From the NCBI RefSeq assembly GCF_003148495.1, contig NZ_QGGH01000005.1:310001-374000 (forward strand): a DNA stretch of 64,000 nucleotides. The letters run 5' to 3'. The notes under the pieces are model-generated. The model saw nothing but the letters and a program-made list of their open reading frames with translations, was not told where the DNA came from and searched no databases. Positions 2,335 to 28,663 of this stretch are shown one piece after another (within the stretch, counting starts at the first letter, position 1; every line of letters begins with the position of its first letter). The position numbers and the translations under genes are program-made. The stretch comes from Mesorhizobium loti (lineage in GTDB: Bacteria > Pseudomonadota > Alphaproteobacteria > Rhizobiales > Rhizobiaceae).

Positions 2335-4707
2335 ATGAACATCCTCGATCGCTATCACGCCATGGAGTACGGCCCGGCGCCGGAAGCCCGCAACGAGGCC
2401 GATGCGTGGCTTGCCGCGCGCGACTTTTCCAAGGCGCTGTTCATCGGCGGCGACTGGAAAGCCGCTTCCGGCGGCAAGACCTTCGAGACCAGCGAGCCGT
2501 CTTCCGGCAAGCTGCTGGCCAAGGTCTCGGACGCCAATGCCGCGGACATCGACGCGGCAGTTGCGGCGGCCACCAAGGCGCTGCCGAAATGGAGCGCCAG
2601 TTCGGGCTACGTCAGGGCGAAAGTGCTTTATGCCATCGGCCGCGCCATGCAGCGGCATCAGCGCCTGTTCGCGGTGCTTGAGACCATCGACAATGGCAAG
2701 CCGATCCGTGAAAGCCGCGACATCGACGTGCCGCTGGCGATCCGCCATTTCATCTATCATGCCGGCTGGGCGCAGGCGCTGGACAGGGATTTCCCCGGCC
2801 AGAAGGGTGTCGGCGTCGTCGGCCAGATCATCCCGTGGAATTTTCCGCTGCTGATGCTGGCCTGGAAGATTGCGCCGGCGCTCGCCGCCGGCTGCACCGT
2901 GGTGCTGAAGCCGGCCGAATTCACGCCTCTGACATCGATCCTGTTCGCCGAGATTTGCGAGCGTGCCGGCGTGCCGAAAGGCGTCGTCAACATCGTCCAG
3001 GGCGGCCCGGAAGCGGGCGTGGCCATCGTCAACCATCCCGGCATCCAGAAGATCGCCTTCACCGGTTCTTCCGAGGTCGGCAAGATCATCCGGAAAGCCA
3101 CGGCGGGGTCCGGGAAAAAACTGTCGCTGGAGCTCGGCGGCAAATCGGCTTTCATCATCTTCGAGGATGCCGATCTCGATAGCGCGGTTGAGGGACTGGT
3201 CGACGGCATCTGGTTCAACCAGGGTCAGGTGTGCTGCGCCGGCTCGCGGCTTTTGGTGCAGGAAGGCATCGCCGATGCCCTCATTGCCAAGGTCAAGACG
3301 CGGATGAGCCGGCTGCGCGTCGGCAGTCCGCTCGACAAGAACACCGATATCGGCCCGCTGGTCGACTTGACACAGCTCGACCGGGTCAAGGGCCTGGTCG
3401 CCGAAGGCGCCAAACAAGGCGCCGTCTGCTGGCAGCCGGATGCGGCGCTGCCGTCCTCCGGCTACTACCATCTGCCGACGCTCGCCACCGGAGTTTCGCC
3501 GGCCAACATTCTCGCACAGGAAGAAGTGTTCGGTCCGGTTTTGGCGACCATGACCTTCCGCAACACCGAGGAAGCGATCGAGCTTGCCAACAACACGCGC
3601 TATGGGCTGGCCGCCTCGGTGTGGAGCGAAAATGTCAATCTGGCCCTGCACGTTGCGCCGCAGCTCAAGGCTGGCGTCGTCTGGGTCAACGGCACCAACA
3701 TGTTCGACGCCGCCTGTGGCTTCGGCGGCTACCGCGAGAGCGGTTTCGGCCGCGAAGGCGGTCGTGAAGGCATGTTCGAATATCTCGCGGCGAAACTGCC
3801 GCTCGGCCCGGTCATCAAGCCGGCGACGCTCTCCGCACAGCCAGTCGAGCAGGCCGACGGCTCGGCAATCGACCGCACGGCAAAGCTGTTCATCGGCGGC
3901 AAGCAGGTGCGCCCGGACGGCAATTATTCGATTGCCATCGCCACCGCCAAGGGCAAGCTTGCCGGCGAAGTTGGTCTCGGCAGCCGCAAGGATATCCGCG
4001 ATGCCGTCTCCGCAGCCCGCGCCTGCAAAGCGTGGCCGGAGGCGACCGCCTATAACCGCAGTCAGGTGCTTTACTATCTGGCCGAAAACCTTTCCGGCCG
4101 CGCCGGCGAATTCGCCGCTCGCCTCACCGAGCTGACCGGCGCTTCGCCCAAGGCCGCGCGGGAAGAAGTAGACCAAACTATCGAGCGGCTGTTCCTCTAT
4201 GCCGGCCTTGCCGACAAGTTCGAGGGCCGGGTGCATCAGCCACCGGCGCGTGCCGTGACACTGGCACTGCACGAGCCGGTCGGCGTCGTCGGCATCGTCG
4301 CGCCTGATACCTCGCCGCTGCTCGGCCTGATCTCGCTGATCGCACCCGCGCTCGCGATGGGCAACACGGTGGTAGCGGTGCCGTCCGAGCGCTATCCGCT
4401 GCTGGCGACCGATCTCTATCAGGTCATCGAATATTCCGACGTTCCCGCTGGCGCCATCAACATCGTCACCGGCCGCACGGCCGAACTTGCCGGCGTGCTG
4501 GCCAAGCATGACGATGTCGACGGACTCTGGGTGTTCGCCGATGCCGAGACCTGCGCCAAGGCGGAAGCCGAGTCCATCGGCAACCTCAAGCGGGTCTGGA
4601 GCGGCAACGGCCGCAGCCTCGACTGGGCCTCCGACGAGGCTGCCGGCGACGCTTTCCTGCGTCGCGCCGTCGAGGTCAAGAACGTCTGGGTGCCTTATGG
4701 CGACTAG
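2335..4707 (+). CDS. Two-domain aldehyde dehydrogenase (ALDH16-like)
   Basis: This 790-residue protein joins two aldehyde dehydrogenase modules. The first (about residues 25-490) is complete: IPWNFPLLMLAWK, FTGSSEVGK, LELGGKS and the nucleophile segment FNQGQVCCAGSRL. The second (about 510-790) resembles ALDH again (IGGKQV near 520, PVGVVGIVAPDTSP near 645) but ends without a catalytic cysteine segment, so it is probably non-catalytic. Known ALDH16 enzymes have this architecture, and bacterial members keep the first-domain cysteine. Position after deoC suggests oxidation of acetaldehyde from deoxyribose breakdown; that substrate is inference. An AAGGAGG-like site precedes the ATG. Confidence 0.88.
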   Translation: MNILDRYHAMEYGPAPEARNEADAWLAARDFSKALFIGGDWKAASGGKTFETSEPSSGKLLAKVSDANAADIDAAVAAATKALPKWSASSGYVRAKVLYAIGRAMQRHQRLFAVLETIDNGKPIRESRDIDVPLAIRHFIYHAGWAQALDRDFPGQKGVGVVGQIIPWNFPLLMLAWKIAPALAAGCTVVLKPAEFTPLTSILFAEICERAGVPKGVVNIVQGGPEAGVAIVNHPGIQKIAFTGSSEVGKIIRKATAGSGKKLSLELGGKSAFIIFEDADLDSAVEGLVDGIWFNQGQVCCAGSRLLVQEGIADALIAKVKTRMSRLRVGSPLDKNTDIGPLVDLTQLDRVKGLVAEGAKQGAVCWQPDAALPSSGYYHLPTLATGVSPANILAQEEVFGPVLATMTFRNTEEAIELANNTRYGLAASVWSENVNLALHVAPQLKAGVVWVNGTNMFDAACGFGGYRESGFGREGGREGMFEYLAAKLPLGPVIKPATLSAQPVEQADGSAIDRTAKLFIGGKQVRPDGNYSIAIATAKGKLAGEVGLGSRKDIRDAVSAARACKAWPEATAYNRSQVLYYLAENLSGRAGEFAARLTELTGASPKAAREEVDQTIERLFLYAGLADKFEGRVHQPPARAVTLALHEPVGVVGIVAPDTSPLLGLISLIAPALAMGNTVVAVPSERYPLLATDLYQVIEYSDVPAGAINIVTGRTAELAGVLAKHDDVDGLWVFADAETCAKAEAESIGNLKRVWSGNGRSLDWASDEAAGDAFLRRAVEVKNVWVPYGD

Positions 4708-4741
4708 CTCGTGAAGGTGTCTTCCGGAGTGTGAGGGATCG

Positions 4742-5023
4742 ATGAAGAGCTATTTTCTGGAGAGGCTTGGCGAAGTGCCGTTTGTTCGAAGCGAGCTGTC
4801 AAAGTTGCTCCCGCATCAGGTCGATCCGTGGTTGCTGAATGCGGGCGACAAGGACCCGGTCGCGTACCTCAGCGTAGCAGCCTGCGATGATGGAACCTCC
4901 TACATCCAGGTGGATATGAGCGGCCGCCACTTCGATCAGGACGAGCTGGTTGTGCAAGTGCTGCGGCAGTTGCAAGGTCAGTTAGGTAGCGTCATTCGGG
5001 ACGATAGTGACGACGAGCTGTAA
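4742..5023 (+). CDS. Small hypothetical protein
   Basis: A 93-residue soluble protein with no recognised family. It has no signal peptide or membrane segment. Its C-terminus is strongly acidic (DDSDDEL), and it has a short amphipathic stretch VVQVLRQLQGQ. A GAGGG purine run precedes the ATG. It lies 34 bp after the aldehyde dehydrogenase on the same strand and could be cotranscribed. No frameshift or truncation is visible. A real gene seems likely from its frame and position, but no function can be assigned. Confidence 0.55.
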   Translation: MKSYFLERLGEVPFVRSELSKLLPHQVDPWLLNAGDKDPVAYLSVAACDDGTSYIQVDMSGRHFDQDELVVQVLRQLQGQLGSVIRDDSDDEL

Positions 5024-5296
5024 GACCTTCGACCTCCTATCTTGGGCACGAGGAAGTGATTCAGGCTCAGCATGAGAATCGAGCCGTTCCTACCCAACAA
5101 GCCGCAGGGCGTTTTGACGCTGCAGCCACGGCGGTGATCGTGTTCGGGCTTGACGCCCGGATGCATGTTCTTTAACGAGAAAAAACATCTTTATCTGTGG
5201 GCTGACAGGCGCGCAGGCCGCATAATGGCGTCCGACTGGCCCATGACGCCCTGGCCGACTGCCGATAAACCCGGACGATCCCTAGAGGAGAACAGC
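5024..5296. other. Intergenic region upstream of the SDR/FAH pair
   Basis: I see no convincing gene here. The segment 5160-5215 is noticeably AT-richer than its surroundings and is the likely promoter region of the following SDR gene. AGAGGAG at 5285-5290 is that gene's ribosome-binding site. Confidence 0.4.
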
Positions 5297-6028
5297 ATGG
5301 CGGATCTGGCAGGCAAGGTCGTTGTCGTCACGGCAGCGGCACAAGGCATCGGCAAGGCGAGCGCGCTGGCCTTCGCCAAGGCAGGTGCCGTGGTCCACGC
5401 CACCGACATCAACGAGACGCTTCTCGCTGAGCTCGCCAAGACGCCAGGAATCAAGGCCCGCAAGCTGGACGTGCTCAACGACGAGGCCGTCAATGCCGCC
5501 TTTGCCGAGATCGGTGTCGTCGACGTGCTGTTCAATTGCGCCGGTTTCGTCCATTCCGGCTCGATCCTCGAGATGAAGGACGCCGATCTCGATTTCGCGC
5601 TGAACCTCAATGTCCGCGCCATGATCCGCACCAGCCGCGCCGTGCTGCCCGGCATGTTGGAACGCGGCGACGGATCGATCATCAACATGGCCTCGCTGGC
5701 CAGCTCGACCAAGGGCGTGCCCAACCGCTTCGTCTACGGTCTGACCAAGGCCGCCGTCATCGGCCTGACCAAGGCGATCGCCGCCGACTATGTCGGCAAG
5801 GGCATACGCTGCAACGCCATCTGCCCCGGCACGGTCGAGAGCCCGTCGCTGCAGGACCGCATGCACGCGCAGGGCGACTACGATGCCGCCCGCGCCGCCT
5901 TCATCGCCCGCCAGCCGATGGGCCGGCTCGGCACGCCGGAGGAAATCGCCGATCTCGCCGTCTATCTGGCCGGCGCCACCTATACGTCCGGACAGGCCTA
6001 TAATATCGACGGCGGCTGGTCGATCTGA
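5297..6028 (+). CDS. SDR-family oxidoreductase (sugar-acid or hydroxyacid dehydrogenase)
   Basis: A classical short-chain dehydrogenase of 243 residues. It has the cofactor motif TAAAQGIGKA near residue 12, the NCAG motif, catalytic Ser in NMASLASS and YGLTKAA (YxxxK), and C-terminal ICPGTVESPS. An acidic residue at the end of beta-2 (ATDINE) predicts NAD use. The sequence style is that of 2-keto-3-deoxy-L-fuconate dehydrogenase and type-2 hydroxybutyrate dehydrogenase. The FAH-family hydrolase 26 bp downstream favours the former role, in non-phosphorylative L-fucose or L-rhamnose breakdown. ATG 5297 was chosen for its GAGGAG site; the open frame starts earlier at 5150. The precise substrate is inference. 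Confidence 0.85.
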   Translation: MADLAGKVVVVTAAAQGIGKASALAFAKAGAVVHATDINETLLAELAKTPGIKARKLDVLNDEAVNAAFAEIGVVDVLFNCAGFVHSGSILEMKDADLDFALNLNVRAMIRTSRAVLPGMLERGDGSIINMASLASSTKGVPNRFVYGLTKAAVIGLTKAIAADYVGKGIRCNAICPGTVESPSLQDRMHAQGDYDAARAAFIARQPMGRLGTPEEIADLAVYLAGATYTSGQAYNIDGGWSI

Positions 6029-6054
6029 ACCAATCTGACTGAGGAGAGCATGAC

Positions 6055-6900
6055 ATGAAGCTGCTGCGCTATGGCGAGGTCGGGAGCGAACGCCCCGGCC
6101 TGCTCGATGCGGATGGAACGATCCGTGATCTCACTGACCATATCACTGACATCGGCGGCAAGGCGCTCGATCCGGCATCGCTGGCGGCACTAGCCAAGCT
6201 CGATCCGAAGTCGCTGCCGGCGGTTTCCGGCAGCCCGCGCCTTGGTGCCTGCGTTGCCGGCACCGGCAAGTTCATCTGCATCGGCCTCAACTATTCCGAC
6301 CATGCCGCCGAAACCGGCGCCACCGTGCCGCCCGAGCCAATCATCTTCATGAAGGCAAGCTCGGCCATTGTCGGGCCGGATGACGACGTGCTGATCCCGC
6401 GCGGCTCGGTGAAGACCGACTGGGAAGTCGAACTGGCCGTGGTCATCGGCAGAAAAGCCAAATATGTCAGCGAGGCCGATGCGCTCGATTATGTCGCCGG
6501 CTATTGCGTCGCCCACGACGTCTCCGAACGCGCCTTCCAGGCTGAGCGGCAAGGCCAGTGGACCAAGGGCAAGTCCTGCGACACCTTCGGCCCGACCGGC
6601 CCATGGCTGGTGACCAAGGACGAGGTCGCCGATCCGCAGAACCTCAAGATGTGGCTGACCGTCAACGGCAAGACGATGCAGAACGGCTCGACCAAGACCA
6701 TGGTCTATGGCGTCAAGTATCTGGTGTCCTATCTCAGCCAGTTCATGTCGCTGCACCCCGGCGACATCATCTCCACCGGCACGCCGCCCGGCGTTGGCCT
6801 CGGCATGAAGCCGCCGGTGTTCTTGAAGGCCGGCGATGTGGTGGAGCTGGGCATCGAGGGCCTGGGCCAGCAGAAGCAGACGTTCAAGGCTGATTTGTAG
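6055..6900 (+). CDS. Fumarylacetoacetate hydrolase family protein
   Basis: A 281-residue member of the FAH superfamily, whose members hydrolyse C-C bonds of diketo acids using a divalent metal. The core runs from FICIGLNYSDHA (near residue 74) through DWEVELAVVIG (metal-binding acids), AHDVSERAFQ, KSCDTFGPTGPW and ISTGTPPGVG. It matches the style of 2,4-diketo-3-deoxy-L-fuconate hydrolase. It directly follows an SDR that could make that substrate, which supports a two-step sugar-acid module, although no fuconate dehydratase is present nearby. A GAGGAG site precedes the ATG. The next gene is convergent. Confidence 0.88.
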   Translation: MKLLRYGEVGSERPGLLDADGTIRDLTDHITDIGGKALDPASLAALAKLDPKSLPAVSGSPRLGACVAGTGKFICIGLNYSDHAAETGATVPPEPIIFMKASSAIVGPDDDVLIPRGSVKTDWEVELAVVIGRKAKYVSEADALDYVAGYCVAHDVSERAFQAERQGQWTKGKSCDTFGPTGPWLVTKDEVADPQNLKMWLTVNGKTMQNGSTKTMVYGVKYLVSYLSQFMSLHPGDIISTGTPPGVGLGMKPPVFLKAGDVVELGIEGLGQQKQTFKADL

Positions 6901-22352: not shown

Positions 22353-25300
22353 TTACTGCTGGAGTTTCAGGATTCTGTTTGGATCCGGATCCTGCTGCTG
22401 TTCGACCTGCGGCCTGCGCCGTGGCAGTACCTGCTGCAGCAGCAGGCCCGGGTTGAGCTCCAGCGACGGTTGCCCGCGGACCGGTCGGCAGTTCGGATAC
22501 CGCCCGATCGTGCCTTCCGGGCAGCGCCGCCTGATGATCGGCTGGCACTGGCCATTGATCATCTGCGTGCCCGGTGCGCATTCCACCTGCTGCCTGGGCT
22601 TGCGGCATGCGCCGTCGATCACCTCGGTCCCACGCGGACAGACACATTCGCCGCGCTTGTTGTGGACCTGGCCGCGTATGTCGCACTGCTGCACATCAGG
22701 CTGCTTGCGCCGGCAGGCATTGCCTTGCACCTCGGTACCCCTCGGGCAGACGCAATCGCCGTTGGCGTCGTGGACCTGGCCACGGATGGTGCATTGCTCC
22801 GGCTTCGGCTGGATCGGTCGGCAGGCATTGCCCCTGACTTCCGTGCCGCGTGGGCAGACGCAATCGCCATCGGTATTGTGGACCTGGCCACGGATGGTGC
22901 ACTGCTCCGGCTTCGGCTGGATCGGTCGGCAGGCATTGCCCCTGACTTCCGTGCCGCGTGGGCAGACGCAATCGCCATCGGCATTGTAGACTTGGCCACG
23001 GATCGTGCACTGTTCGGGCTTTGGCCGGATTGGACGGCAGGCATTGTCCCTGACTTCCGTACCCCTAGGGCAGACACAATCGCCGTCTGAATTGTGGACC
23101 TGGCCACGGATGGTGCACTGCTCGGGCCTGTCGGTCCTGACACATTTGCCGTTCTCAAGCCCGGTTCCGCGTGGGCAGACGCAGCGTCCGTCCTCGGTGC
23201 GGATCTGGCCTTCGAGCAGCACGCAGCGCTTCGGCGGCGGTGGCGTTGGCAGAACATTGGTACCACCGCCGGTGCACTGGCCATTGCGGAAGGTGGTGCC
23301 TTCCGGGCAGACGCAGCGACCGGCGTCGTTCATGACGAAGCCTTGCGAGCATTCCTTCTTCGTCTCCTGGCTGATGGTGAAGGGATGGCAGGCATAGGCC
23401 TTGCCGCGATCGCCCTGCACATTGGTCTGGTCGCCGCCAAGCACGTCGCCACCGCCTTGCACCCGTGTGTCGGGAGAGAGCACGCCGACGCAGTTCTGGC
23501 CGCTGACGTTGCCCTGCAGATTGGCCAGGCGGCCGTCGTCGGGAATGACCACGGTGACATGGTGCACCTGGCTTTCGCCGGCGCCGAGCGTCAGGTCGGC
23601 AATGCAGGACGCAGGCAAGGTTGCCGGTTCCGGCGAGCAGCCGAAGGGCGGATCGATCGACGTGATTTCAACGCCTTCCAGCCTGCCGAGCCCATCCACG
23701 CCGATCGCATCACCGATACGGACCGGTCCCGAGAAGGGGGTCGTCCCATCATTGGTGATGGTGATCTCGAACGAGCAGGGTTGGCCGAGCTTGCATTCGC
23801 GGTCGCCGGTTTTTTCGACACGGATGGTCGAAGAGCCGCCGCCCTTGGCGCAGGCCTGGCCGATCGGATAGACGATGTCGTCGCCTGGCGCCGGACCAAA
23901 CGAACCCCGCGCGCAGTTCTCGAACGCGCCATTCGCAGAAACCGTCACGTCGAAGTGGCGGCTGGTTCCAGGTGTCATCACGGCACCGGGAATCTGGCAC
24001 GACAGCGCATTGGCCGGAACCGGTCCGCATGCCCATTCCGCGCCGTCAGGGGTGACGGTCTGGATCTGGACGGGCGCGCCGCCAGCCACCAGCGTGGCGG
24101 CATCGTTGACCCGCACCGGACCGGTGGGGGCAGCGGTGCCAAGGCTGATGACGGTGATGCGGCAAGAGATGACCGCGGCACCGGCGAGCGAGCCGTTGCA
24201 TACCTTGGTGATGCGCAGGGTCGGCTTGCCGCCATTGGGATGACGGAAGCGTTCCTTGGCGCAAGCCTTGTTATTGGTGAGGTCGTTTTCACCAGGAATG
24301 GCCTTCACCGCGGCGCAGTTCTCCACCGTGTCCGACTGGTAGCCGGCCGGCATGACCGCCTTGACGACGATCGGTGTCGAGGCGCCCGGAGGCAGCGAAA
24401 TCCCCGCATTGTCGCAGCGGAACTGGCCGGGGCCGTTCGGTCCGCATGTCCAGGGCGGGCTCGGGCCGAAGGTCGAGGAGGACGGCGCGCCGCCCGGATA
24501 GGTGTCGATCACCGTCAGCGGCCCATTATAGGTTGATGTGCCGTTGTTGATGATGTCGATCACGAAGTAGCAGATGCCGTCGGCCGTGCAGACCGGGATA
24601 CGGGCACGCTTCTTCAGGATCAGGTCGACCTTCTTTTCGACCGGCGGCTGGCAGTCGCGGTCACGGTCGCCACGCCGGCAGATCGGGATCGAGGCACAGC
24701 CGCGATCATTCGATTGGCTGCCGAACAGCGGCTTGCCGCTGGCCCCATAATTATACGTGGCGCAGTTGCGCAGGACGCTGCCTTGCCAGCCTCCGGCCGG
24801 CTTGAAGCCGAGCTTGAGGTCGACGGAGGCCCCCGGACTGAGCGTGGTCACCGGATAGGTGCACGTCATCGGGGTGGTGCCGGGTACGCAGACCCAGGGC
24901 GGATTAGGCCCCGAATCGAGCGTCGATCCGGCCGGCAGCGTCACCTCGTCGAGCACGATCTTGCCGTGGTAGGCACCGGTGCCGACATTGGTGACCCTGA
25001 TGGTGAAGTCGCAGCCGCCGCCCATCGTGCAACGCGTCACGTCGGCGCGTTTCTCGACCTTGAGGTCCGGCTCCTTGTCCTTGGGCGGGCACCTCTGGTC
25101 ACGCGGGATGACGATGTCGATCGTCTGCGTGCAGCACAGGCCCCAGCCTTCCTTCGGACCGGCATAGGTTTCGATGCCGGTGACGATGAGGTGGATGACG
25201 TCGCCGGGCGATGCGCCGACGATCTTCCAGTTTAAGACACCGCCGCCCGCCGGCACCAGCTGGGTGTCGGGGATGATGGTGATGCCGGGCGTGGTCGTCG

Positions 25301-26141
25301 ACACCTGCACCCACTTGCCGCCCATCTCCGGGCCGACCGGCATGTGATAGATGAAGGCGCCGCCGCCGGGCACGCAGTCGACCGTGCCGCGTTCCACCTT
25401 GAAGCATTCCTTGCCGGGAGGTGGCGGTGGCGGGTTGCATTTTGTGACGTCGATCTTGATCGAGGTCTTCACGCCGGTCTTGAAGTCGCCGTCGTCGGGC
25501 TTGCCCGGATCCTGCGACGGGATGATGGTCCCCGTGCCCGGTCCGGCCGTCACCTTGATCATGCCCTGGTTGTCGACGATCGTTGGTGCGGGAAAAGCCG
25601 CATGATCGATCTTGGCCGTGATCTGGAAGGTGATGACGCGCTCGTTCGGAGCACCGGCGCCGTCGAGATCGGTGGCGGAGAGCCGGAAATCGGACACAGT
25701 CGCCGTATCGTTGGGATTTGCCGAGGTGCTGATTGAAGCCCCCGGCAGTGGCCCACCGGACGAATCCGTGCCGTCGCCGGCCACATTGACGTTGACGATC
25801 TCAAGGCCGTGCGGGAGCTGGTCCTTGAAGTCGAGCTTGAGCTTGTTCAGCCTGGCCGCGAGGCTTGGGTCGGCAAAGCCTTGCGGATCGCCGCGCAAGC
25901 CGAAGCTCAGCGAATAGACGACATAGTCGCAGCTTCGTTGAGTGCCTTTCTTGGTGAAGAAAGGCACGAGCCGGTCCGGCCTCGGATTGACGACGCGCGA
26001 ATTGTCGAGGTCGAGCTTCAGTTCCGGGGTGATCGGAACGGCGTCTTCCGCGTGGCTTGCCACAGGGGTGAGCATGGCGACCGCGATACCGGCCGCCATC
26101 AGCCAGCGCGCGCCGCGCCTGGCATATGACAGGGGTTTCAT
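22353..26141 (-). CDS. Large secreted protein: DUF11-like domains plus Cys-rich 36-residue repeats
   Basis: This 1,262-residue protein has a signal peptide (hydrophobic WLMAAGIAVAML, cleavage after SHA near residue 31). Residues 246-351 form a Cys-containing domain shared with the upstream neighbour (PGD and CC motifs). Four DUF11-like beta-sandwich domains follow (about 358-460, 506-630, 640-765, 772-915), each with paired cysteines and an N-x-GT motif. Residues 931-1220 are Cys-rich units (CVCPRGTEV...C), six of 36 residues in near-perfect tandem, then a Gln/Pro-rich tail. Start 26141 follows GGAG. An extracellular or outer-surface structural or adhesive role is inferred. No anchor motif is seen, so it may be released. 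Confidence 0.8.
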   Translation of the reverse strand: MKPLSYARRGARWLMAAGIAVAMLTPVASHAEDAVPITPELKLDLDNSRVVNPRPDRLVPFFTKKGTQRSCDYVVYSLSFGLRGDPQGFADPSLAARLNKLKLDFKDQLPHGLEIVNVNVAGDGTDSSGGPLPGASISTSANPNDTATVSDFRLSATDLDGAGAPNERVITFQITAKIDHAAFPAPTIVDNQGMIKVTAGPGTGTIIPSQDPGKPDDGDFKTGVKTSIKIDVTKCNPPPPPPGKECFKVERGTVDCVPGGGAFIYHMPVGPEMGGKWVQVSTTTPGITIIPDTQLVPAGGGVLNWKIVGASPGDVIHLIVTGIETYAGPKEGWGLCCTQTIDIVIPRDQRCPPKDKEPDLKVEKRADVTRCTMGGGCDFTIRVTNVGTGAYHGKIVLDEVTLPAGSTLDSGPNPPWVCVPGTTPMTCTYPVTTLSPGASVDLKLGFKPAGGWQGSVLRNCATYNYGASGKPLFGSQSNDRGCASIPICRRGDRDRDCQPPVEKKVDLILKKRARIPVCTADGICYFVIDIINNGTSTYNGPLTVIDTYPGGAPSSSTFGPSPPWTCGPNGPGQFRCDNAGISLPPGASTPIVVKAVMPAGYQSDTVENCAAVKAIPGENDLTNNKACAKERFRHPNGGKPTLRITKVCNGSLAGAAVISCRITVISLGTAAPTGPVRVNDAATLVAGGAPVQIQTVTPDGAEWACGPVPANALSCQIPGAVMTPGTSRHFDVTVSANGAFENCARGSFGPAPGDDIVYPIGQACAKGGGSSTIRVEKTGDRECKLGQPCSFEITITNDGTTPFSGPVRIGDAIGVDGLGRLEGVEITSIDPPFGCSPEPATLPASCIADLTLGAGESQVHHVTVVIPDDGRLANLQGNVSGQNCVGVLSPDTRVQGGGDVLGGDQTNVQGDRGKAYACHPFTISQETKKECSQGFVMNDAGRCVCPEGTTFRNGQCTGGGTNVLPTPPPPKRCVLLEGQIRTEDGRCVCPRGTGLENGKCVRTDRPEQCTIRGQVHNSDGDCVCPRGTEVRDNACRPIRPKPEQCTIRGQVYNADGDCVCPRGTEVRGNACRPIQPKPEQCTIRGQVHNTDGDCVCPRGTEVRGNACRPIQPKPEQCTIRGQVHDANGDCVCPRGTEVQGNACRRKQPDVQQCDIRGQVHNKRGECVCPRGTEVIDGACRKPRQQVECAPGTQMINGQCQPIIRRRCPEGTIGRYPNCRPVRGQPSLELNPGLLLQQVLPRRRPQVEQQQDPDPNRILKLQQ
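22581..23225 (-). repeat. Six tandem 108-bp repeats encoding Cys-rich units
   Basis: Six in-frame units of 108 bp (the last one codon shorter) encode the pattern C-x4-GQ-x3-...-CVCPRGT-...-C. The three units spanning 22794-23117 are nearly identical at DNA level, while the outer ones have diverged. This indicates recent expansion in the middle of the array. Confidence 0.85.
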
Positions 26142-26211
26142 GATCGTCTCCATGACGGTTGAGTTGTTTTCTGCGAGCGGGGAGAGTGCGAGATTTTTCA
26201 TCTTCCCCTCC

Positions 26212-28173
26212 TCAACGTTCGCAGCTGACGGCTGGGGTTCTGAGCGGCAAAGTCATCTTGCAGCAAGGGTAGTAGCCACCCTTGTCCTTGTCGGACTTCC
26301 TGTAGAAGCAGAGCCCGACATCGACTGTGTCGCCCGGATCGTGGCCGGTGATGTCGATCGTGTAGGGCTTGCCGGGCGCATGCGACTGGGATGATGTCAC
26401 CCCGACGCCTGGCGTCCTGGACTGGGCCTTGATCGAATCGCCGCCGAAGCCGGCATGGTCATGGAGATAGAGATCGGCCTCAAGCCCCGAAGGCGTGCAG
26501 TAGTACTGGACATCTTCAACGTCGAGACACGGAGGCAGATTGCCGGGCGGTGGGAAGTCCGGCGGGTAGAAGGGGGGCAGGTAGCCGCCCGGGATTTCTT
26601 CATAATAGCCGGCGCGGCCTTCGCAGGGATGCCAGACGGCAACGTCGCCGACATGACCCTCGACCTCCGGGTCTTCGAAATAACCGTCGAAGTCGACGAG
26701 CCAGGAGCCGAAGGGCGGCACATTGGCCGGCTTGACCAGCTCTTTGGGCGTAATCTGCACGCCATGCACGGCCAGCGGCCCGCCGGCGGCGAGCTGTTCG
26801 GCGAGAGCCGGATTGTCGCGCAGCTTGTCGCCGGTGTTGACCAGCGTCTGCGTGCAGACCGAGGTGTCGAGATTGCCGTCGGCGTCATAGCCATATTGCA
26901 GGTCGAGACCGCCGGCCGACTGCCGGTTGCCCTGCGGGAAGCCGATCGCATATTCCTGCGGCATTTCCACCCAGACCGATTCGGTTGCCGGATCGTCCGG
27001 GTTCTCGCGCCAGTAGCGAATGACCTCGCCCTTGCCGGAATCGGCGAACTGGCTGTAATCGTAGCGGTTCTCGACCGGACCGCGCTGGGCCAGGTACATG
27101 AAGCCGCTGTTGTCGAAGGCGATATCGGTGACGGCGTAGTCCTTGTCGGCCTTGACCGTCAGTTCCCAGCGCGGGTCGCCGGCAAAGGTGCCGTCGCGGG
27201 CGATGCCCACCGACCAGATTTCCGACTTTTCGCCGACAGAGTAGTAGAGCCGGCCACCACGATAGGAAACGGCCCAGATGCGGCGCTCGTCCTGCGTGTA
27301 GCCCCAACTGTCGGGGTCTTCGCTGTCGAAGGCCGCGCCCTGGATGTCCATCACCGACCCGTCGTCGGCGACGGGAGCCAGCCCATGCGCGGGGCGGCCG
27401 ACAACGCCATGGTCGAAGCTGTCGATCAGCCTGCCGTTGGCGTCGATGCGATGGATCAGGCCGGTGTCGAGGTCGGAAGCAAAGAACTGGCGGTGGCTGG
27501 GATCGAAGGTGAGATTGCCGATGCCGGGGCCGCTGTTGGTGTCGATGTCGGCGAATTTGGAGACCTGGCCGGTGATGCCGTCGATCTTCCAGATGGTGCC
27601 CGGCCCGCCGCCGTTTTCGGTGCCGAACTGGCCATCCATGAAGGTGGCGCCGGCCATGCCGCGGCGTTGCCGCTCAGGGCGACCGTCATCGTCGGCGTCC
27701 GGCGTGACGATGCGGATGCCGTGCAGCGAGGTGGCGCCGGCATAGAGATTGGGAATGCCGGACGGAATGCCGTCGCGCACTCCATCGTCATAGGTGACGC
27801 CGAACACCTGGCCGATCTGCTCTGCCGTCACCTCGAAGGGCGGCGGTGTGTTGACGAGCTGGCCAGCGGCCGGTCCGCCCAGATGCGAGACGTCGAACAC
27901 GCGCAAGGTGGCGCGGGTGGTGTCGATGAAGGTTTCGTCGACCGGATCGACGCCGGGCGGCAGGCCCTCGTCGAAATTGGGAATGATGGTGCCGGAAAAT
28001 CCGGTCACCGCCATCGAGCCGGGATAGATGATCTGGGTTTCCTGCGCCTGCGCGGCGCCACCCAGCCACAGGCCGGCGGCGAGCGTCAGCGCCAGCAATG
28101 CGCCGCCAGCATGCGCGGCACGACGCAAACGACCATCAAGAGACGACACGAACGAGCCGCGGATGCGAGACAT
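26212..28173 (-). CDS. Secreted protein with propeller-like body and shared C-terminal Cys domain
   Basis: A 653-residue exported protein of unknown function. The signal peptide has core GGALLALTLAAGLWLGGA, with cleavage near residue 43 (AQA). Residues 100-450 contain spaced motifs such as GTIWKIDGITGQV, GNLTFDPSHRQFFASD, IWAVSYRGGRLYYSV and TDIAFDNSGFMYLAQRG, read as blades of a beta-propeller. A proline-rich linker (PPFYPPDFPPPGNLPP) leads to residues 549-653, which match residues 246-351 of the protein encoded 70 bp downstream (TPG, PGD and CC motifs). ATG 28173 follows GGGGGAG; the open frame reaches 28422. The two genes probably form an operon. Confidence 0.78.
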   Translation of the reverse strand: MSRIRGSFVSSLDGRLRRAAHAGGALLALTLAAGLWLGGAAQAQETQIIYPGSMAVTGFSGTIIPNFDEGLPPGVDPVDETFIDTTRATLRVFDVSHLGGPAAGQLVNTPPPFEVTAEQIGQVFGVTYDDGVRDGIPSGIPNLYAGATSLHGIRIVTPDADDDGRPERQRRGMAGATFMDGQFGTENGGGPGTIWKIDGITGQVSKFADIDTNSGPGIGNLTFDPSHRQFFASDLDTGLIHRIDANGRLIDSFDHGVVGRPAHGLAPVADDGSVMDIQGAAFDSEDPDSWGYTQDERRIWAVSYRGGRLYYSVGEKSEIWSVGIARDGTFAGDPRWELTVKADKDYAVTDIAFDNSGFMYLAQRGPVENRYDYSQFADSGKGEVIRYWRENPDDPATESVWVEMPQEYAIGFPQGNRQSAGGLDLQYGYDADGNLDTSVCTQTLVNTGDKLRDNPALAEQLAAGGPLAVHGVQITPKELVKPANVPPFGSWLVDFDGYFEDPEVEGHVGDVAVWHPCEGRAGYYEEIPGGYLPPFYPPDFPPPGNLPPCLDVEDVQYYCTPSGLEADLYLHDHAGFGGDSIKAQSRTPGVGVTSSQSHAPGKPYTIDITGHDPGDTVDVGLCFYRKSDKDKGGYYPCCKMTLPLRTPAVSCER

Positions 28174-28663
28174 GACACTCCCCCCGTAGTCAACGGGAGA
28201 AACGTCCGGTCTGGCCGCGCAAATCAGGGCAAGGCGCGGCGTTCCGGCTCGTTCTTCCCTGATCGAATTGTCTGCTTTCCTCATTGTCACGATACGCCTG
28301 CTCTTACGCAGGGTCAACGGAATCAGCGGAAAACCCAGCGCATCGACCCCGTCCCGAAGGCGGTGGTCGCGCCGAGCTCCTGTTGTTCCCGGAGACCGCG
28401 GAGTCTCTGGGTTATTGGTCATGGGGGGCTTCCTTTCCGGGCCGCACCATGCGGCGCCTGGACATCAGTCGCAGGCGGAGGTGGAAAGGTTCATGGAAGC
28501 CTTGCGCAGAATGCTTGCGCGCGATGCCGCCTGTTCTTATATACGCGCCAAGCCGTTCGGTGCCGGAATGCCGGTTGCCGGAACGGAATTTCTTGTGAAC
28601 AGGGGCTTTCGTCGGAACGCCTGTACGGGTCCTGAGAGCCTGCTTAGCGGAGAGACTAGAAAA
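28174..28663. other. 490-bp divergent intergenic region
   Basis: This holds the 5' regions of the leftward secreted-protein operon and of dnaK. Open frames crossing it are in-frame extensions of the flanking genes without ribosome-binding sites. The only clear signal is the heat-shock-type promoter at 28514-28542. Confidence 0.5.
28514..28542 (+). promoter_or_regulatory. RpoH (sigma-32)-type promoter of dnaK
   Basis: CTTG (28514-28517) and CTTATAT (28536-28542) are separated by 18 bp. This fits the alphaproteobacterial heat-shock pattern CTTG then CYTATNT. Transcription from here would give a leader of roughly 110 nt before the dnaK ATG. Confidence 0.6.

Follow-up and report, generated by a model that had tools for sequence, protein, structure and literature searches.

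We propose that two adjacent genes of Mesorhizobium loti encode the halves of an exported propeller-DUF11 protein that is made as one chain in many Hyphomicrobiales, and that the halves are joined by a small paired domain; we put the probability of this reading at roughly 0.55. The genes lie on the minus strand of contig NZ_QGGH01000005.1 (assembly GCF_003148495.1; genome of 7.45 Mb), within a stretch of 64,000 nucleotides (contig positions 310,001 to 374,000), which is called the window below. Gene B, the upstream member, encodes a signal peptide, a propeller body and, at its C-terminal end, one copy of the paired domain, here termed the seam domain (domB); gene A encodes a signal peptide, DUF7929, the second copy (domA), DUF11-type repeats and a cysteine-rich tail (Table 1). 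The two copies are homologous and occur in pairs, the protein has been split and re-fused, the seam tree shows one duplication, the folds are predicted and the isopeptide triads of A are conserved, and the pair is best read as a split, possibly branched, fibrillar-adhesin-like envelope protein.

The first-pass annotation had pointed out a common cysteine-containing domain in the two proteins, and comparison bears this out: residues 549-653 of B are homologous to residues 246-351 of A (numbered from an inner start that gives 1262 residues), a domain of about 105 residues. Smith-Waterman alignment of whole B with whole A gave a score of 95, which none of 500 shuffles reached, and alignment of the two domain stretches gave 80, reached by none of 5000. 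When 10 B-copies were compared with 10 A-copies by hhalign, the probability was 97.1 (E 5.1e-11) over 105 columns. Across 17 rows of both copy kinds, six columns are invariant (C, C, G, C, C and P); the TPG glycine, the first C pair and the CC pair are among them. In the comparison of folds, which had been set beforehand as one of two refuting tests, the two segments were predicted to have the same strand layout: in AlphaFold2 models, domB and domA agree in strand or not-strand state at 83% of 105 aligned positions, a value that none of 104 circular shifts attained, and the seam domain is predicted to be seven-stranded with a layout common to both copies (model of A residues 32-468: predicted local distance difference test (pLDDT) 78, predicted TM-score (pTM) 0.48). 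No Pfam family was matched by any of 17 members in hmmscan at E<=5, and no PDB sequence match was found at E<=1. The VIA structure comparisons, made with models of B and of the N-terminal part of A, bear little on the seam domain itself. The idea that the seam domain is a stray DUF11 domain was rejected, hhalign against the four DUF11-type repeats of A giving a probability of 0.8. Six cysteines are conserved in domB and five in domA in the aligned close set. An inter-chain disulfide is not claimed from these counts; DUF11 repeat 1 also has five cysteines, and B has an even number, eight.

The seam domain was detected in 29 of 397 sampled genomes of the order, all of them among the 115 that carry the propeller family, so that 86 genomes have the propeller without a detected seam domain. 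Exactly two copies scored above threshold in 28 of the 29; in the remaining genome, G097, the second copy lies below that threshold and was found in a separate search. The fetched loci of all 29 show the copies on consecutive genes, at the C-terminal end of gene 1 and ahead of DUF11 in gene 2. In two class samples, the seam domain was present in 4 of 289 genomes and the propeller family in 2 of 133 (our own genome included in both), and in the phylum sample the seam domain was present in 6 of 249 genomes, all of the same genus. Among the three further class genomes, G653 and G664 carry both copies, and gene 2 of G566 runs off its contig. No seam copy was found outside such a gene pair at E<=0.001 in these 397 order, 289 class and 249 phylum genomes, and a search of plasmid records gave one weak match without gene annotation. 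DUF7929, which occurs in 33 of the 61 genomes searched first (our own included), has gene B directly upstream and both seam copies in 33/33; in the order sample, 24 of 397 genomes have it, every one of them a seam-domain genome with DUF7929 lying between the two copies. Of 80 named loci, 79 hold pairs, among which gene 1 is frame-broken in three and the contig of L244 ends ahead of domA; the remaining locus, from M. muleiense, is a single chain. The homologues of the two proteins are found as neighbours, contrary to the second refuting outcome named in the first-pass annotation, in which they would never co-occur.

That the pair represents a split form of a longer protein is suggested by its relatives. 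In the fetched loci, the seam domain is absent at any E up to 10 from 51 of 76 propeller open reading frames (ORFs), of which 42 also encode DUF11-type repeats; the other nine include L122, which is a frame-broken split gene, and L076, L141 and L144, which touch a locus end. A hidden Markov model (HMM) built from four pieces of A was used for DUF11 counts in the loci and is therefore circular for A itself. Such single-chain proteins of Hyphomicrobiales (e.g., L065-L069, L142, L143 and L147) have a homologous propeller, 45-51% identical to that of B in L065-L069, followed by DUF11-like repeats on one chain, with neither a seam domain nor DUF7929. Because these relatives carry both bodies in one chain, the complex that the first-pass annotation envisaged for the pair is now better founded, and partner binding through the shared domain, which it also envisaged, is plausible, with no excess coupling between the copies (see below). 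Besides its pair, G010, a genome of the same genus, encodes a second propeller protein that is distant and single-chain and has seven or more DUF11-type repeats (L073 4456-10002, +).

A tree was built from 27 loci chosen for spread, with 26 rows of each kind of copy, and domB and domA separate completely in it (support 100/98, and in all 200 bootstrap trees); several end branches are long, the domB of L135 was left out as too short, and L138 has no domA in view. Because the copies separate so cleanly, one old duplication that predates the sampled split lineages, those outside the order included, would explain them. In a propeller tree of 85 rows (35 split and 50 single, using 11 of the 80 named loci, with the label of L122 wrong because this gene is split and frame-broken, and with the G148 pair, described below, not included), at least 7 changes of the split label are needed, 6 of them forced by well-supported branches. 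Taken together with the clean separation of the seam copies, these changes point to repeated losses or re-fusions, or to transfer.

Three Mesorhizobium loci (L063, L064 and L236, from genomes G016, G020 and M. muleiense) provide examples of re-fusion: B is joined in frame to A, and both seam copies are gone. In G016 and G020, B runs to residue 534 and is followed by A from residue 479 or 480, with identities of 80-81% and 71-74%; the joints differ slightly among the three, and dnaK and rpe still flank the fusions of G016 and L236. A motif PPCLD/PPCLG, like the start of domB, is retained at the joint in two of the three, and the fusions are nested among split forms in the propeller tree (10-row clade 100/100; fork just inside 86/91), for which reasons an ancestral single chain was rejected for the M. 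muleiense group. Most likely, judging from these sequences, a deletion removed both seam copies together with the signal peptide, DUF7929 and DUF11 repeat 1 of A, and the resulting single chain has been maintained.

The modules around the pair vary, and the constant part is the domB/domA pair together with the DUF11-type stalk. In G148 (L127), gene 1 encodes a signal peptide and domB in 153 residues, without the propeller (2401-2862, -), and gene 2 encodes a signal peptide region directly ahead of domA and then DUF11, without DUF7929 (335-2455, -); one lineage has thus lost the propeller yet keeps the seam pair. The module ahead of domA is DUF7929 in 24 of the 29 order genomes, and it is weak by our own HMM in L123 and L132. 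In L137 (G427, 3550-6699, +), a different module of about 217 residues that starts with NPGFE and is not DUF7929 stands in its place; it resembles, we assume, a carbohydrate-binding type of sandwich. About 100 residues without a match precede domA in L135, and about 700 residues do so in two loci outside the order, L139 (3319-8481, -) and L140 (1328-5023, +); in L139, a weak VWA_2 match follows domA.

The AlphaFold2 model of B has a pLDDT of 81 and a pTM of 0.83, and agrees with the propeller-like body that had been noted from the letters alone: the prediction is a six-bladed propeller of YWTD/NHL-like type that superposes on nidogen (1npe) with a VIA Z of 25.6 over 257 of 263 residues at 2.6 A, and the best 32 listed structure matches fall between Z 24 and 25.6 at 2.5-2.9 A. 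B is alike in fold to the YWTD/NHL six-bladed propellers of nidogen, LDLR, LRP6 and Pizza6, and the identity of 9-14% permits no functional inference. No Pfam or NCBIfam family matched B itself, DUF6923 was matched weakly by 3 of 15 members of the B family (best E 0.0028), and no PDB sequence match to the propeller was found at E<=0.01.

The DUF11 sandwiches that the first-pass annotation had assigned to A were confirmed, with the exception of the N-terminal domain, which is DUF7929 (E 3.4e-89; 297.7 bits against a gathering cut-off of 27; positions 1-175 of 175). Passages available from PMC12617251 list DUF7929 and DUF11 (there renamed CLIPPER) as isopeptide-bond families, describe the bond of DUF11 by crystallography, link DUF11 to fibrillar adhesins, and predict for DUF7929 a bond formed by Lys86, Asp129 and Asn213 of A0A090G7K7. 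A carries this domain at full length, and its predicted triad, Lys84, Asp127 and Asn211 (1282-residue numbering), sits at the positions of that exemplar minus two. In window A together with 47 of 73 usable named A proteins, the triad is conserved at K 48/48, D 48/48 and N 47/48, and the model of the domain, of predicted CnaA-like fold, matches CnaA-type pilin and adhesin domains by VIA (BcpA 3rkp Z 11.0, SpaD 9.9, and the CLIPPER fibrillar adhesin 9ifr 9.1). The Pfam DUF11 profile (PF01345) scored 59.5 bits against a cut-off of 24.6 in two stretches, which are repeats 1 and 2. In repeat 1 the triad is conserved at K 48/48, D 40/48 and N 48/48, and K, D and N are present by eye in repeats 2-4. 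Repeats 3 and 4 had no Pfam DUF11 match on their own; repeat 3 is 29% identical to repeat 1, and repeat 4 exceeds the TIGR01451 cut-off at residues 803-824 and matches DUF7507 below its cut-off (E 0.0018). Internal isopeptide bonds probably lock the stalk of A, which is made up of one DUF7929 and about four CLIPPER-type domains. Pfam and NCBIfam scans of A and B detected neither an anchor nor a sorting domain.

From these observations, we infer docking, branching and adhesion of the B-A pair as follows. B would be a propeller head and A an isopeptide-locked stalk with a cysteine-rich tail, each half bearing one seam copy at the break. The two would be made together, the start of A lying 10 bp after the stop of B, and exported separately via their own signal peptides, after which the seam domains may hold the halves together, either copy to copy or by each copy clasping the neighbouring domain of the other chain. 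With a new N-terminus of A at the joint, the propeller could be accompanied by a second module (DUF7929, a different one or none), and the tip would then be branched, an arrangement that one chain cannot make. A stronger form of this proposal, to which we incline less, is that the seam family is an obligate docking pair of types A and B that joins two separately exported chains into a branched, isopeptide-stiffened envelope filament, the pair becoming dispensable and being deleted once the halves are fused. In that filament, B would contribute a propeller or nothing, and A a stalk with an exchangeable second arm.

Several observations weigh against this reading. We compared evolutionary rates of the domains across 71 of 96 usable loci, after removal of near copies, which is a weak test of contact: the partial rank correlation of domB and domA, controlling for the four other domains, was -0.04. 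Even with caution for so weak a test, this speaks against a simple copy-to-copy contact. The copies would also stay together without binding if one tight gene pair were simply inherited vertically. The propeller-free pair of G148 comes from one metagenome-assembled genome that is 71% complete; the reach beyond the order amounts to three genomes, in which the propellers of G566 and G653 are identical and the listed contamination is 10% for G653 and 8% for G664; and the re-fusions form one clade and may represent one event. PG_binding_1 was found in three of seven proteins scanned, namely in two of three single-chain relatives (L066 and L074) and in one of four gene-A proteins (the pair member L135), directly after a DUF11-type repeat in each (L066 4761-7823, L074 1557-6014 and L135 1716-4847), hinting at a periplasmic or peptidoglycan-near location.

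The same rate comparison lends some weight to a different geometry, in which each copy grips the neighbour of the other chain, domA lying against the propeller and domB against DUF11 repeat 1. The highest cross-chain partial correlations were those of the propeller with domA (0.55) and of domB with DUF11 repeat 1 (0.42); both exceed the values for adjacent domains of the same chain (0.11-0.25), and both hold in a subset of 34 distant loci (0.56 and 0.57). In a near subset of 54 loci, however, the pattern is not specific (propeller-domA 0.38, propeller-DUF11 repeat 1 0.39, domB-last DUF11 0.36), and covariation of rates is no evidence of contact. We regard this geometry as unlikely. The covariation of the propeller with domA is unexplained if seam domains bind only each other.

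About equally improbable, in our estimate, is that the pair is a relic. An old single-chain gene would have been split by a tandem duplication of the domain together with a stop/start, the copies would be leftovers with no joining role, and the two proteins would act separately, remaining neighbours through their shared operon. Vertical inheritance accounts for the conserved neighbourhood, domA and domB show no excess covariation, and fusions of the M. muleiense type lose both copies together, all of which would suit a relic. However, the copies have been kept since before the sampled split lineages diverged, with invariant Cys, Gly and Pro; G148, whose gene 1 lacks the propeller, still has both; and pairs persist at loci where dnaK (45/80) or rpe (37/80) was not found in the available flank, several of these loci being short or cut by contig ends. 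Less probable still is that the seam domains bind a common external partner (a glycan, peptidoglycan or a third protein) and not each other, since, although two copies of one fold could bind one ligand type and PG_binding_1 occurs among the relatives scanned, the copies have been distinct since an old duplication, differ in cysteine content and were not found outside the gene pair at E<=0.001 in the genomes sampled.

The nearest described systems to the split protein preferred here are the CLIPPER (DUF11) fibrillar adhesins (PMC12617251; 9IFR), which, in the passages available, share with A and B a signal peptide, a distinct head and tandem DUF11-type repeats with Lys, Asp and Asn. Those adhesins are described with head and stalk on a single polypeptide, whereas here two genes carry them separately, with a matched seam domain. 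A head and a repeated stalk on one exported chain are found in the single-chain relatives and not in B or A. In those passages DUF7929 is named once, in a table, with no mention of a partner gene or seam domain. A literature search that covered few subscription papers found no account of this pair and DUF7929 named only in PMC12617251; PMC3420878 was rejected as a source on DUF11, matching only through DUF1109. The view of the first-pass annotation that no such system has been described thus holds for the pair in the literature searched and fails for parts of A; as far as we searched, novelty lies in the split, in the pairing of the seam domain and in the natural fusions, and the parts are of known kinds.

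If docking is real, the pair would be a natural route to a long bacterial envelope protein made from two exported pieces, with uncut, cut and re-fused versions as nature's own controls. The seam domains would then be small, matched docking partners that contain cysteines and function outside the cytoplasm, and the split itself a gene fission, open to testing, that a pair of domains has maintained. DUF7929, confined to such pairs in the order sample (24/24 genomes), would gain a context as well. Even on a modest reading, two long unknown proteins of many legume symbionts would be halves of one machine. The minimal pair of G148, a 153-residue domB protein and a domA-DUF11 protein, is a good candidate for structure work.

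Table 1. Features of the gene pair in the window (window positions)
Feature	Position	Strand	Basis
Gene B, exported propeller protein, 653 aa, seam domain at C-terminal end	26212..28173	-	ORF; full-length relatives
B signal peptide, ...AQA|QET	28045..28173	-	by eye
B propeller body, residues 44-536 (predicted)	26566..28044	-	AlphaFold2 model; VIA match to 1npe
domB, seam-domain copy in B, C-terminal, 6 Cys	26215..26529	-	alignment, profiles, tree; placed at 26218-26532 in the order search
Shine-Dalgarno-like GAGGAGGGG and spacer, abutting the ATG of A (26201), beside the stop of B	26202..26213	-	
Gene A, exported DUF7929-seam-DUF11 repeats-Cys-rich protein, 1282 aa; inner ATG 26141	22353..26201	-	ORF, Pfam
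A signal peptide region, ...SHA|EDA	26049..26201	-	by eye
DUF7929 (PF25551), CnaA-like	25443..25967	-	Pfam, triad alignment, VIA
domA, seam-domain copy in A, 5 Cys	25086..25421	-	alignment, profiles
DUF11/CLIPPER repeat 1	24753..25076	-	Pfam DUF11; K/D/N counts
DUF11/CLIPPER repeat 2	24309..24635	-	Pfam DUF11, second match
DUF11-like repeat 3	23907..24218	-	alignment to other repeats; own HMM, circular here
DUF11-like repeat 4	23502..23834	-	TIGR01451 above cut-off; DUF7507 below cut-off
Cys-rich tandem repeats, 108-bp (36-aa) unit, 4.3 copies	22660..23127	-	

B and A are adjacent on one strand, as first annotated, between genes that we take, from reading of their translations, to be rpe and dnaK. 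The start of A is most likely the ATG at 26201, because a Shine-Dalgarno-like sequence precedes it and because the first start so preceded is an ATG 9-11 bp after the stop of B in 73 of 78 named loci. The gap between the genes is therefore 10 bp and not the 70 bp given at first, which corresponds to the inner start, 60 bp further in. Mature B (610 residues) is up to 97% identical to its nearest named relatives, which are from Mesorhizobium. Long ORFs of 726 residues (26455-28635, +) and 480 residues (23094-24536, +) run antisense to B and A, respectively, and are most likely products of the high G+C content.

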